A stretch of 38,500 bases of DNA from Treponema sp. GTDB taxonomy: Bacteria; Spirochaetota; Spirochaetia; Treponematales; Breznakiellaceae. Position 1 is the stretch's first letter. Every line of letters starts with the position of its first letter. Made by a program: the position numbers and the translations under genes. The stretch spans positions 1-38,500 of the forward strand of contig JAIRXT010000151.1 in NCBI GenBank assembly GCA_031268125.1. Reading direction: 5' to 3'. The notes beneath the pieces were generated by a model. That model was not told the DNA's origin. It worked only from the letters and a program-made list of their open reading frames with translations, and searched no databases. Below are positions 518-14,786 of the stretch, one piece after another.

Positions 518-2586
518 TAAAACAGGTAGTTAAACGCTCAGGGGCCCTTGAAGCCTACGACCGTTTCAAAATATTCAGCGCCGTAAGCCGGGCCTTTGAC
601 GCGGTGGGAAAGACGGCCGCGGGAGGAACCACCGCCCTTTCCCCGGAGGAACAGGACGAGCGGGTAGAGGCCGTAACAAAACAGGTGGAAAGCCTGGCGG
701 AAGATATGATGAGAGGCCGCCATCCCTCCTCTATTCCCGCTATCGAGGAAATTCAGGACCTGGTGGAAACCGCCCTTATCGAAAAGCAGGAAACCGCGGT
801 AGCCAAATCCTATATCCTCTACCGGGCCCGGCACGAGGCCAGACGGGACCTGAAAAAACTGATGCTGGACATCGATTCCACAATGGACGGCTACCTCCGG
901 CAGTCCGACTGGCGGGTCAATGAAAACGCCAACGTGAACTACTCGCTGGGGGGGCTTATCCTCCACAATTCGGGGACCATCACCGCCAACTACTGGCTCA
1001 AGAATATCTATCTCCCGGAGATTGCCGATGCCCACAGGGACGCGGATTTTCATATCCACGACCTTTCCATGTTTTCAGGCTACTGCGCCGGCTGGTCCCT
1101 GCGCCAGCTTATCTCCGAAGGGCTGGGGGGGGTGGCGGACAAGATCACCAGCAAGCCCGCAAAGCACCTTTCCACCCTGATGCAGCAGGCGGTGAATTTT
1201 CAGGGCTGCCTGCAGAACGAATGGGCCGGGGCCCAGGCCTTTAGTTCCTTCGACACCTATATCGCCCCCTTTGTAAAGGCCGACAAGATGAGCGACAAGG
1301 AGGTAAAGCAGTGCCTCCAGAGCTTTGTCTTTGGGGTGAATACCCCCAGCCGCTGGGGCAGCCAGGCGCCCTTTACCAACATCACCCTGGACTGGGTCTG
1401 CCCTGCGGATCTTAAAGATCGAAAAGCCGTAACCGGGGGGCAGGAAACGGAATTCAGCTACGGCGACTGCCAGGCGGAAATGGACCGGGTAAACCGTATC
1501 TTCATCGAGTTGATGCTGGAGGGGGATGCCAACGGCCGGGGTTTCCAGTACCCCATCCCCACGTACAACATAACCAGGGATTTTGACTGGGACAGCGATA
1601 ACGCGGGGCTCCTCTTCGAGATGACCGCCCGCTACGGCACCCCCTATTTCCAGAATTTTATCAACTCCGATCTGAATCCCGAGGACGTCAGGTCCATGTG
1701 CTGCCGCCTGCAGTTGGACAAGCGGGAACTGCGGAAACGGGGGGGCGGCCTCTTCGGCTCCGACGAGCTTACCGGTTCCGTGGGGGTAGTAACCGTCAAC
1801 CTTCCCCGGATCGCCTATCTGGCAAAAGACCGGGGGGATTTCTACCGCCGCCTTGAAAGACTCATGAACCTGGCGAAGGAAAGCCTTATCATCAAGCGCA
1901 AAACCATTACAAAACTGCTGGATGCGGGGCTTTTCCCCTATACCCGGCGCTATTTGAAGAATTTCAACAGCCATTTCAACACGATCGGCTTAGTGGGAAT
2001 GAACGAGGCCCTGCAGAATTTCCTGGGGAAGAACGTGAGCATCGCAACGCCCCAGGGCCGGTCCTTTGCCCTGGAGGTTCTGGGTTTTATGCGGGAGAAG
2101 CTTGCGGATTTCCAGGAGGAAACGGGGGAACTCTTTAACCTGGAGGCCACTCCCGCGGAATCAACCTCCTACCGTCTGGCAAAACACGACAAGGCCCGCT
2201 ATCCGGACATTATCACCGCGGGGACAACGGAGCCCTACTACACCAATTCCACCCAGCTCCCGGTGATGGAGACTGAAGACGTCTTCGACGCGCTGGACCA
2301 GCAGGAGGCCCTGCAAGCTGCCTACACCGGGGGCACGGTGTTTCATGTTTTCCTGGGGGAAGCCATCGAGGACCGGCGGAGCTGCCGGAATCTGGTGCGG
2401 ACCATTGCCCAAAATTACCGGATTCCCTATTACACCATCTCCCCCACCTTTTCGGTATGTCCGGTCCACGGCTACCTGCGGGGGGAACACTTCCACTGCC
2501 CCAAATGCCGGGAAGAACAGGAGGCGGAATTGCAGAATGAAATTAACGCCCTGGAACAGGAGCGGGAATATATTCTAAGGTCATAA
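514..2586 (+). CDS. nrdD: Anaerobic (class III) ribonucleoside-triphosphate reductase, catalytic part: ATP-cone, barrel and Cys/His zinc-finger; lacks the C-terminal glycyl-radical loop
   Basis: N-terminal ATP-cone; FSGYCAGW, MCCRL, TGSVGVVTVNLPRI motifs; ends CPVHGYLRGEHFHCPKCREEQEAELQNEINALEQEREYILRS with no VYSRxxGY segment. Confidence 0.95.
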   Translation: MIKQVVKRSGALEAYDRFKIFSAVSRAFDAVGKTAAGGTTALSPEEQDERVEAVTKQVESLAEDMMRGRHPSSIPAIEEIQDLVETALIEKQETAVAKSYILYRARHEARRDLKKLMLDIDSTMDGYLRQSDWRVNENANVNYSLGGLILHNSGTITANYWLKNIYLPEIADAHRDADFHIHDLSMFSGYCAGWSLRQLISEGLGGVADKITSKPAKHLSTLMQQAVNFQGCLQNEWAGAQAFSSFDTYIAPFVKADKMSDKEVKQCLQSFVFGVNTPSRWGSQAPFTNITLDWVCPADLKDRKAVTGGQETEFSYGDCQAEMDRVNRIFIELMLEGDANGRGFQYPIPTYNITRDFDWDSDNAGLLFEMTARYGTPYFQNFINSDLNPEDVRSMCCRLQLDKRELRKRGGGLFGSDELTGSVGVVTVNLPRIAYLAKDRGDFYRRLERLMNLAKESLIIKRKTITKLLDAGLFPYTRRYLKNFNSHFNTIGLVGMNEALQNFLGKNVSIATPQGRSFALEVLGFMREKLADFQEETGELFNLEATPAESTSYRLAKHDKARYPDIITAGTTEPYYTNSTQLPVMETEDVFDALDQQEALQAAYTGGTVFHVFLGEAIEDRRSCRNLVRTIAQNYRIPYYTISPTFSVCPVHGYLRGEHFHCPKCREEQEAELQNEINALEQEREYILRS

Positions 2587-2606
2587 AGACCAACGTTGAA
2601 ACGACT

Positions 2607-2633
2607 CCGGGGGCGGGGAATACCGCCCTGCGG
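2607..2633 (+). repeat. Intercistronic hairpin between nrdD and the glycyl-radical ORF
   Basis: CCG-g-GGGCGG-ggaata-CCGCCC-tg-CGG, followed by TTTTT at 2642-2646; folding energy not computed. Confidence 0.5.
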
Positions 2634-2665
2634 GAACAATATTTTTAAACGAGGAGCACAGTAAC

Positions 2666-3178
2666 ATGAGAACCCTTGAACAAGTAGAAAAGGATCTAAC
2701 CCAGGCCAAAGACGCCCTTTCATCGGTAGAAGGCACGCCCGCGGAGGTATACAGCCGTATCGTCGGGTATTACCGCTCGGTACGGAACTGGAACCGGGGT
2801 AAGCGGGAAGAATACGGCGAGCGGCGGCTCTACGATCTTTCCCGGCCGGAACATTCCGGGCGGAATCCGGCGGAAGCAACGGCGGCCGGCGGGGAACCGG
2901 CGGCAGTTACCGTCCCGGCTGCCGGCGCCGGGGGGACCAAAGTCCTCCTGTTCTGGCGCCAGTCCTGTCCTGCCTGCCCATCCGCAAAGGAAGCGGCGGG
3001 CCGGCTGGGAATTCCGGTAGACCTGGTAAACGCCGATACGGAGGCGGGATTTGCAGAAGCCCGGGAGCGGAACGTGCTTGCCACCCCCACGGCCATTTTC
3101 CTTTCGCCGTCGGGTACGGAGATCGGCAGGGCCCGGGATTCCCGGTCCATCGCCGCCTTCGGCAAAACCGTGGTGTAG
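2666..3178 (+). CDS. Stand-alone NrdD glycyl-radical domain fused to a thioredoxin/glutaredoxin-like domain
   Basis: EVYSRIVGYYRSVRNWNRGKREEYGERR matches the NrdD C-terminal glycyl-radical loop (candidate Gly34); then an Ala/Gly/Pro linker and KVLLFWRQSCPACPSAKE...VLATPTAIFLSPSG, a CPAC thioredoxin-like fold with ATPT cis-Pro motif. SD GAGGAG at 2651-2656. Confidence 0.88.
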   Translation: MRTLEQVEKDLTQAKDALSSVEGTPAEVYSRIVGYYRSVRNWNRGKREEYGERRLYDLSRPEHSGRNPAEATAAGGEPAAVTVPAAGAGGTKVLLFWRQSCPACPSAKEAAGRLGIPVDLVNADTEAGFAEARERNVLATPTAIFLSPSGTEIGRARDSRSIAAFGKTVV

Positions 3179-3189
3179 GGAAAGGCCTT

Positions 3190-3903
3190 ATGGTAAGGCT
3201 GCGTAAAACCAGCCTGGTTGATTACCCCGGCGGGATCGCATCGGTGCTCTTCCTGCCCGGCTGCAACCTTCGCTGCCCCTGGTGCCAAAACCGGGAACTG
3301 GTTCTGCAATCCGTACCGGAGGCCTTCATTCCCCTGGAAGAAGCTCTCGCTCTGATACGGAAACGCCGGAATCTGCTGGACGGGGTAGTTGTTTCCGGGG
3401 GAGAACCAAGCATATACCCCGCGCTGGGGGATCTGATCGCCGAACTACACGGCACCGGGCTTCCGGTAAAGCTTGATACCAACGGTATGAATCCCCGGGT
3501 GTTAAAAAAAATCTGCGGAGAAAAAAATTCCCGGCCCGATTATATCGCCCTGGACCTGAAACTGGCCCCCGGCCGCTACCGGGAGTTGCTGCCTTCCGCC
3601 GGCCCGGAGGAGAAAACCGGGCCGGCCTCTTTTGATCCCGCCGCCGCCCTTACCGAAAGCGCCGCGCTGGTCCGTGCTTCGGGAATTCCCCACGAGTACC
3701 GCAGCCTGGCCCTGCCGGGCGGATACTTCGGCGCCGGGGACGTTGAAGCCCTCTCCCCCCTGGCCGACGGCGGCCCCTGGTATTTCCGCCCTTTTTCACC
3801 GGGAAACTGCCTGGACCCCGCCTGGAATTCCCTCCCCCCCACAGGGGAAAAGGAAACGGCGGCGCTGGCGGAAACGGCGAAACCCCGCCTGCCGCAGACC
3901 TAG
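3190..3903 (+). CDS. nrdG: Anaerobic ribonucleoside-triphosphate reductase activating protein (radical SAM)
   Basis: FLPGCNLRCPWCQN CxxxCxxC cluster; VVSGGEPS; adjacent to nrdD. Confidence 0.93.
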   Translation: MVRLRKTSLVDYPGGIASVLFLPGCNLRCPWCQNRELVLQSVPEAFIPLEEALALIRKRRNLLDGVVVSGGEPSIYPALGDLIAELHGTGLPVKLDTNGMNPRVLKKICGEKNSRPDYIALDLKLAPGRYRELLPSAGPEEKTGPASFDPAAALTESAALVRASGIPHEYRSLALPGGYFGAGDVEALSPLADGGPWYFRPFSPGNCLDPAWNSLPPTGEKETAALAETAKPRLPQT

Positions 3904-9794: not shown

Positions 9795-12008
9795 ATGTGG
9801 ATAAAATGGCCAAAAACAACGGTTCTGTTGTTTCTTATACTCGCCGGGGGGAACGTTTTTGGGCAGCAGCGTCCCCCCATCGATCTGGTACTGCTTCTGG
9901 ATACGTCTTCTGGTATGAGCGGTTACTACAGCCAAGTTAACCACTACCTTACCGGTTCATTTTTAAGCGATAATTTGCAGTTGGGTGATACTTTTCATCT
10001 TATCGCCTTTTCGGACAAACCCCGGATGGAGATTGCCCGCCGTGTTGAAAGTCAGGGGGACCTGGAGACCATCATCGGCCGTATGCTGCTGATGTACCCG
10101 CTGGAACCTCAGGCGGATATTCCCGCCGCCCTTTCTTTTGCGAAAACCTACACGGAAAATTTGAACCCTTCCCGGCAGCGGAAAATCGTTGTCCTGAGCC
10201 TTGGAGGGGGGACCGAGTCCTTCCCGCGTCTACTGGAAGAATCCCGGTTGCGAATGGGCGGCATTGGTCTTGAGCATATAAACCCTGCGGAACTTCCCCC
10301 TGCCCGTCCTGCCGCCCCTATAACAAGCCCCAGAACAGAGCCCCAGCCGGTGCCTCCAATTCCCCGGACGGAACCTCAACCGGCGTCTCCAGCCCCCAGG
10401 CAGGAGCCCCAGCCGGCGTCTCCTCCAGTCCCTAGGCAGGAACCTCAGCCGGCATCGCCAAGCCCCCGGACGGAACCCCAGCCGGCGTCCCCGCCACCAG
10501 CCTCCAGAACAGAGCCTCAGCCGGTATCCCCTCCAGTCGTCCCTAGGCAGGAACCCCAACCGGTGCCTCCAACTCCCAGGACGGAACTTCTGCCGACGTT
10601 TCCACCATCAGGCCCCAGGCCAATTCCCCGGCCGGTGTCTCCAGCCCCCACGGAACCTCAGCCGGCATCGCCAAGCCCCCAGCCGGCGTCCCCGCCGCCA
10701 GCCCCCAGGACAGAGCCTCAGCCGGTATCCCCTCCAGTCGTCCCTAGGCAGGAACCTCAGCCGGCATCGCCAAGCCCCAGGACGGAACCCCAGCCGGCGT
10801 CCCCGCCGCCAAGCCCCGGAACAGAGCCCCAGCCGGTATCCCCTCCAGTCCCTAGGCAGGAGCCTCAGCAGGTGCCTCCAGCTCCCAGGGCGGAACTTCT
10901 GCCGGCGTTTCCACCATCAGGTCCCCGGCCGATACCCCGGCCGGTGTCCCCAGTCCCCACAGAGCCTCAGCGGGCATCGCCAAGCCCCGGAACGGAGCCC
11001 CAGCCGGTGCCTCCAGCCCCCACGGAACCTCAGCCATCAGCTTTACCGCCAAACCCCGGAACAGCGCCTTCGGCCCCAGCAGCAAGCCCCAGGACGGAGC
11101 CTCAGCCGGTGCCTCCCAGACCGGAGCCGGAATTACTCCCAATCCCCGAACCGGCCTCAAATCCTGAATTCGAGTCTCCGCCGCCCGGACCGGAACCGTC
11201 GGCGGTTTCCGAATCCCCTCAGGCCTCTGAACCTGAGCCGCCGCGGGAATCCGTGACGGTTCCGCCCTCCCCCGTAACTCCGCGAACCGTTCCCCAAAGG
11301 GCCGGAAGACTTATACATGCGGACGGAGACAGGATAATTATTTTTATCTGTTTGGGACTCCTGGGTTTTGTGCTACTGGGCCTGGCGGCGTTCTTTGTAG
11401 TCCGCCGTCTCCACAAATCCCCCAACAGGGCGGTAGCCAAGGCGGCGCAAAACCACTCCGCCGGTTCTCCGGGTAAAACCCCTCAGAAGAATCCTCGAAT
11501 TCAGGCAAAAAAACCTCCCCGGAACACTGTTCCCGTTACCGCGGAACAGCCGCCCCCACGGACAGAGGAACCCTACCGGCCGCCCCGCAGGGAAAATCCC
11601 TATACGGACAAACCCGTTCAAAAACTCGAATACGGTTCACCTTTCATGATCAAGCTCTTCGTGGCGGATCAGAACACCCTTATCGGCAAACGGAATACCC
11701 ACCTGGTAAAGCCCGGTTTTACCTATACGGTGGGGGGCGGCAAATCGGATTTCCTCATCTTCCTGGTTCCCGTCCCCCCAAATCTGGGAGAACTGAAATA
11801 CGAAACATCGGGCTGTACGTTTTATCCCCGCAAGCCGGTCTACTTTCCCGATACCGGCAGCAACCCCGTGCATGACTGTATCGGGAAGACCATCAGGATT
11901 ATGTCGGACAAGGGTTATGAGCTTTTCATACGGCTGGAACTGCACGAGGATCCCCTGGTGGAACTGAACCAGCTTATGCTGTCTATCAATATTCCAAATT
12001 TATCCTAA
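9795..12008 (+). CDS. Membrane-anchored von Willebrand factor A-like protein with long proline-rich repeat region
   Basis: Signal peptide; IDLVLLLDTSSGMSG MIDAS-like motif; Pro-rich (EPQPASP-type) repeats; TM IIIFICLGLLGFVLLGLAAFFVV; C-terminal globular domain. Confidence 0.82.
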   Translation: MWIKWPKTTVLLFLILAGGNVFGQQRPPIDLVLLLDTSSGMSGYYSQVNHYLTGSFLSDNLQLGDTFHLIAFSDKPRMEIARRVESQGDLETIIGRMLLMYPLEPQADIPAALSFAKTYTENLNPSRQRKIVVLSLGGGTESFPRLLEESRLRMGGIGLEHINPAELPPARPAAPITSPRTEPQPVPPIPRTEPQPASPAPRQEPQPASPPVPRQEPQPASPSPRTEPQPASPPPASRTEPQPVSPPVVPRQEPQPVPPTPRTELLPTFPPSGPRPIPRPVSPAPTEPQPASPSPQPASPPPAPRTEPQPVSPPVVPRQEPQPASPSPRTEPQPASPPPSPGTEPQPVSPPVPRQEPQQVPPAPRAELLPAFPPSGPRPIPRPVSPVPTEPQRASPSPGTEPQPVPPAPTEPQPSALPPNPGTAPSAPAASPRTEPQPVPPRPEPELLPIPEPASNPEFESPPPGPEPSAVSESPQASEPEPPRESVTVPPSPVTPRTVPQRAGRLIHADGDRIIIFICLGLLGFVLLGLAAFFVVRRLHKSPNRAVAKAAQNHSAGSPGKTPQKNPRIQAKKPPRNTVPVTAEQPPPRTEEPYRPPRRENPYTDKPVQKLEYGSPFMIKLFVADQNTLIGKRNTHLVKPGFTYTVGGGKSDFLIFLVPVPPNLGELKYETSGCTFYPRKPVYFPDTGSNPVHDCIGKTIRIMSDKGYELFIRLELHEDPLVELNQLMLSINIPNLS
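10330..11140 (+). repeat. Degenerate in-frame tandem repeats encoding EPQPASP/EPQPVSP/EPQPVPP-type motifs
   Basis: Recurring cctaggcaggaacc(t/c)cagccgg, ccggacggaaccccagccggcgtc; higher-order unit ending R(T/A)ELLP(T/A)FPPSGPRPIPRPVSP occurs twice. Confidence 0.9.
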
Positions 12009-12040
12009 GGAAGCGCCGGTTTATCCGCAGCCCCCCTAAC

Positions 12041-12205
12041 CTAAACTTGACCCACAATTAAGCCCGGTTCTTTGCCGTTACGGCGAAGAACCGGGTGGTC
12101 AAATATCAAACGTAACACTTTGTAGATATCTCTTCCCTACGATAAAGCTAAATTTGACCCGTATCGTGTACCCGGCCCCGGCGGAACATTGTGGATCAAG
12201 TTTAG
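12041..12205. mobile_element. Putative MITE-like non-autonomous element with 18-bp TIRs and 8-bp target duplication
   Basis: TIRs ctaaacttgacccacaat (12041-12058) / attgtggatcaagtttag (12188-12205), one mismatch; flanked by identical cccctaac at 12033-12040 and 12206-12213; no coding capacity. Confidence 0.78.
12063..12095. repeat. Strong hairpin inside the MITE-like element
   Basis: cccggttctt-t-gccg-tta-cggc-g-aagaaccggg. Confidence 0.85.
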
Positions 12206-12208
12206 CCC

Positions 12209-14786
<2,578 letters not shown>

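Follow-up and report, generated by a model that had tools for sequence, protein, structure and literature searches.

Two convergent genes in this Treponema genome are separated by a short stretch of DNA with an inverted repeat at each end, which raises the questions of whether it is a mobile element and what would have moved it. The window, the 38,500-nucleotide stretch analysed here, is all of one contig (C44) in an assembly of 282 contigs that totals 2.23 Mb and is 77% complete.

An element between two stop codons

The element spans positions 12041-12205 (165 bp) and begins with the left TIR CTAAACTTGACCCACAAT (12041-12058, plus strand), located by repeat finding and genome search. The right TIR (12188-12205, minus strand, on which it reads CTAAACTTGATCCACAAT; repeat finding) pairs with it in arms of 18 nt that are 94% complementary and contain one mismatch. 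Outside the TIRs lies the unstranded direct repeat CCCCTAAC, evident in the sequence and by repeat finding, whose 8-bp copies at 12033-12040 and 12206-12213 are 100% identical. A sequence-only reading of the locus had described TIRs and a perfect target-site duplication of just this kind, and our measurements agree with it. They agree as well on a strong interior hairpin at 12063-12095, the unstranded palindromic module P1 (CCCGGTTCTTTGCCGT/ACGGCGAAGAACCGGG), which is 33 bp overall with 16-nt arms (12063-12078 and 12080-12095) that match at 94%, and which is present in some copies of the element and missing from others. The same reading had given the interior as 165 bp long and free of ORFs; the second statement holds, as the ORF list has no frame of at least 60 aa inside the element, whereas the figure of 165 bp applies to the whole element, the stretch between the TIRs measuring 129 bp. 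That stretch also holds a core, ..AACACTTTGTAGATATCTCTTCCCTACGATAAAG (12104-12144, plus strand), which copy comparison shows to be common to most copies, and an internal TIR-like copy, CTAAATTTGACCCGTA (12148-12163, plus strand), oriented like the left TIR.

The element sits between the stop codons of the two convergent genes and leaves both reading frames unaltered. On the plus strand, the gene for a 737-aa von Willebrand factor A domain (vWA) protein (9795-12008) ends 24 bp ahead of the left duplication. On the minus strand, the gene for a 463-aa HEAT-repeat protein (12209-13600; ORF list and domain search) has an intact frame, and its stop TAG (CTA at 12209-12211) falls within the right duplication, so the earlier proposal that the insertion kept this stop was correct. 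The vWA protein itself contains a long tandem proline-rich stretch of PRTEPQPASPPP-like units.

Folded as single-stranded DNA, the element is much more stable than its dinucleotide shuffles (z = -7.75). This strong fold and the location between convergent genes would suit a structural RNA or terminator element that is retained there for its hairpin and is merely MITE-like, but no terminator with a T-run was found, no Rfam family matched, the element is missing beside the HEAT stop in readable same-genus orthologues, and other copies have duplications and related empty sites. Compensatory changes in P1 affect 2 pairs, a number reached in 91 of 500 shuffles; since this covariation is no more than that in shuffles, we claim no RNA function, and we regard such an origin as highly improbable.

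A family of copies in the same genome

Allowing up to 2 mismatches, the TIR matches 77 places in the 2.23-Mb assembly and none with a reversed control, and there are 20 exact occurrences of the left-TIR 18-mer (position 11 being C or T). The further end pairs that the sequence-only reading had suggested seeking are thus present in abundance, and no orthologous locus in distant relatives was found to carry the same sequence. A BLAST search with the window element returned 68 matches to its body in its own genome at 76-97% identity. From the 77 ends we estimate that there are some 50-60 related, modular copies. Contig ends cut through many of them, as would happen if the assembly breaks at repeats. 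Among complete copies, the one closest to the window copy shares 85% identity with it, which leaves current mobility unproven.

Perfect duplications of 8-10 bp that differ in sequence flank copies at seven sites in this genome, the window site included; the six others are AAGTAAGGG (contig C188), the 10-bp CGCAGAGCGG (C20), CTCCTAGGG (C202), GTTCAGAAT (C29), CTATAGCG (C173) and ATTTTACGG (C225). Over all sites found, the duplication is 8 bp long in 11/27, 9 bp in 10/27 and 10 bp in 6/27.

Copies of the element differ by the presence or absence of entire nested palindromes. Besides P1, there is a palindrome of about 105 bp, P2 (GGCCGGGAAAAAGGCCGGAAAAACATATGGAATTC...), which contains the smaller palindromes GGCGCC-ACA-GGCGCC and CGGCATATTGCCG and is matched 29 times in the genome, for the most part inside such elements. 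The internal end copy of the window element is the outer end of shorter elements of 158-170 bp at other loci. This nested palindrome structure is moderately supported, and palindromes may have been gained by replication slippage or by nested insertion. Many copies (loci L325, L329, L332 and L334) are themselves enclosed by another palindromic repeat, AAAAGGCGCC...GGCGCCTTTTCGTTTTGGAATGGTTAA, so that repeats are nested in repeats.

A Tn5-like insertion sequence with the same ends

The search for the parent covered more widely spaced pairs of these ends in relatives, and then the transposase family. Such pairs bound elements of 1450-1476 bp whose degraded ORFs match Tn5-type IS4 transposase models, and the family search found intact versions of the IS, also in relatives. 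The full-length IS that the sequence-only reading had called for therefore exists, and the transposase that it took to be implied by the 8-bp duplication has a counterpart in a Tn5-like IS. The intact IS at locus L137 (contig C203 of genome G074, positions 1259-2730) is 1472 bp long, has a single open frame of 449 aa, is identical to the window element in 16/16 terminal bases, and is flanked by the 9-bp duplication CGCAGAGCA; the IS at L125 has an 8-bp duplication. The 449-aa protein matches Tnp_DNA_bind, DDE_Tnp_1 and Dimer_Tnp_Tn5 (PF14706, PF01609 and PF02281) above cut-off and aligns over nearly its whole length with Tn5 transposase crystal structures in the PDB (E = 3.5e-31). The alignment places in it the Y-(2)-R-(3)-E-(6)-K motif, as YMQRWKIERFHYVLK, a motif defined for the IS4 family in the same work that gives the IS50 subgroup a length of 1350-1550 bp and a duplication of 8-9 bp (PMC2266710). 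By size, motif and duplication length, the putative parent is an IS of the IS50/Tn5 subgroup of the IS4 family. Its ends fit 6/7 specified positions of the IS50-subgroup consensus, CW------Y---CA-A--W-, with G rather than Y at position 9.

One could object that another enzyme, such as that of a different IS family, moves the repeat, and that the repeat's end matches IS50-like elements by coincidence. MITE and IS resemble each other in no more than the terminal 16-17 bases, too little to demonstrate that the MITE arose from the IS by simple internal deletion, and the end also fits 6/8 positions of the ISPepr1-subgroup consensus (PMC2266710, Table 1). Against coincidence, the identity at the end extends over 16 bp, duplications are alike in length (8-10 bp), exactly these ends bound several IS copies that have Tn5-type domains and lengths of 1450-1476 bp, and ends and transposase co-occur in the same bacterial family. 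A different enzyme is thus very unlikely, and the Tn5-like transposase is the mover that we prefer.

No parent transposase was detected in the assembly to which the window belongs, and its absence is weak evidence, as that assembly is only 77% complete; a Pfam search of the genome for the dimerisation domain was uninformative, its control having matched nothing anywhere. In G105, a genome of the same genus, a piece of the transposase with 82% identity to the intact enzyme lies beside an end of the same kind. Two stretches of the own genome were considered as full-length IS copies and rejected. One (C132:419-1558) has no transposase-like ORF, the longest being a 146-aa frame that overruns the element, and the other (C240:1176-3385, locus L082 of genome G000) has the reverse transcriptase of a group II intron inside it. 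This reverse transcriptase/maturase of 427 aa (ORF 1884-3167) is flanked by a MITE-like end at 1176 and by more ends at 3284 and 3369, an arrangement that suggests entry of the intron into a MITE.

Distribution of ends and bodies

The ends are present in 128/200 genomes of the bacterial family and the transposase family in 65/200. Among the matches listed for the exact 17-bp end, all but five are to assemblies of Treponema, Spirochaetaceae and related spirochaetes, whose isolate codes we take to denote termite-gut samples. Good matches to the MITE body were found only in its own genome, and elsewhere the ends alone match; the ends are therefore common to the bacterial family and the bodies species-specific. 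A near-identical element of 340-341 bp that shares these outer ends and is flanked by perfect 10-bp duplications occurs at three further loci, L203 (7367-7707), L312 (7153-7492) and L313 (7049-7389). The first is in Paenibacillus eucommiae, so this end sequence also exists outside the spirochaetes.

Empty sites

The sequence-only reading had also proposed looking for an uninterrupted version of the window site. No strict empty site was found among HEAT orthologues in the readable same-genus genomes, a set that leaves out the same-genus locus L200; these orthologues (66-76% identity) have no element directly after the stop and a different next gene, and it is this lack of conserved gene order that leaves the window copy without a strict empty site. 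Related empty sites were found for other members. The intact IS at L137 sits in one of the terminal hairpins of a 160-bp repeat; genome G076 has uninterrupted copies of this repeat with 95-96% identity across the IS junction. The MITE at C20:1415-1656 in the own genome splits the same repeat, of which contig C1 has an uninterrupted copy (AATGAAGAACCCCGCCGCAGAGCGGTCAGGGTATCTTCG). The sequence CGCAGAGCGG occurs once at C1 and twice at C20, as expected if the insertion duplicated 10 bp.

The 160-bp repeat, a landing site of the IS and of a MITE, is dispersed, has a GC-rich hairpin at each end (L337, 1501-1660; L006, about 2437-2569; L053, 1657-1804) and matched nothing in Rfam. We presume that it is perhaps an IS200/IS605-type derivative.

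Target choice

We aligned 24 perfect-duplication sites from several genomes of the bacterial family (the window site and 23 others), a sample selected for perfect duplications that comprises the 27 sites minus L203, L312 and L313, where 10-bp duplications flank a different element. The alignment gives the symmetric consensus CCCC-N2-[8-10 bp duplication]-N2-GGGG, with C at positions -6 to -3 in 62-79% of sites and G at +3 to +6 in 54-87%, counted outside the duplication. The fold of empty sites is better than that of flanks exchanged between sites (p = 0.012, 500 swaps), and in leave-one-out scoring 13/24 sites lie above the 99th percentile of window positions. The same scoring puts the window copy's own site near the background median, which rules out reading its CCCCCC..GGG as a consensus match. 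Reading frames are avoided as insertion sites: insertions lie within a frame of at least 100 aa at 7/19 sites, against 81% of positions, a control that counts spurious frames and gives meaning only to the contrast. In six genomes, exact CCCCGC-N8-10-GCGGGG palindromes were counted beside a reversed control and are the more numerous in most of them; the own genome has 12 to the control's 5 and G026 has 24 to 5, but G074 has 4 to 7. It is thus moderately supported that insertions favour palindromes, including the hairpins of other repeats, with the window site as an exception.

Discussion

The ends, the duplications, the copy family, the related empty sites of other members and the intact same-ended parent in a relative are direct observations, and we put at about 0.93 the probability that the window element is a MITE, non-autonomous and moved in trans by the IS4-family, IS50/Tn5-subgroup transposase of an IS with the same ends. 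The MITE-like character proposed from the sequence alone is likewise supported by copies in the same genome, their duplications and the same-ended IS in relatives. If the chemistry is that of Tn5, the transposase would bind both 18-bp ends and cut the element out, which would then be pasted into staggered cuts 8-10 bp apart, with repair making the duplications. Landing between the two convergent genes would have duplicated 8 bp containing the HEAT stop and left both proteins unchanged. The parent, acting in trans, may formerly have been in this species or may be missing from its assembly.

Tn5 has among the best-understood of bacterial transposases, and the outer end of IS50 is CTGACTCTTATACACAAGT. 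The L137 parent resembles IS50/Tn5 in its Tn5-type DNA-binding, DDE and dimerisation domains, its 1472-bp length, its 9-bp duplication and its ends, which start with CT and have CACAA at positions 13-17. It differs in that the ends here are CTAAACTTGACCCACAA, duplications at MITE sites reach 10 bp, the hosts are spirochaetes, and the consensus CCCC-N2-[8-10]-N2-GGGG contrasts with the looser preference of Tn5. Because Tn5 is well understood, the basis of this differing target preference is testable with existing structures.

Insertion of IS4-family elements into palindromes is known for ISRm22 and has been noted for Tn5 (PMC1525189). ISRm22, an IS4-family element that inserts in REP sequences (PMC1525189), likewise has copies in intergenic palindromes, but it belongs to subgroup IS4Sa (PMC2266710) and to another host; the preference seen here is common to MITEs and IS, takes in the hairpins of another dispersed repeat and is disobeyed by some copies. 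Our literature searches on IS231A target sites and on Treponema MITEs gave nothing usable. As described in a review (PMC10969869) and for MITEAba12 (PMC6382973), bacterial MITEs are short, non-coding, intergenic and hairpin-forming, with TIRs and duplications, as is the element here, which differs from them in its IS50-type ends and its modular gain and loss of nested palindromes. The text of that review names IS50 only as part of Tn5 and is silent on Treponema, and the present family is apparently undescribed so far.

An IS50-type transposase lineage of termite-gut spirochaetes could have come to prefer hairpin loops, those of other mobile repeats included, so that IS and MITEs build nested modular intergenic palindromes and spread with little harm to genes; we raise this tentatively, with the odds somewhat against it. 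What is now defined is a system that consists of a species-specific MITE family, a Tn5-type parent in relatives and a palindromic target consensus. The element in the window, one of dozens of copies in a spirochaete of termite-gut type, is a genuine genomic parasite of a rather common sort, and the wide spread of its ends through the bacterial family helps to explain the intergenic repeats, and possibly the contig breaks, of these metagenome assemblies.
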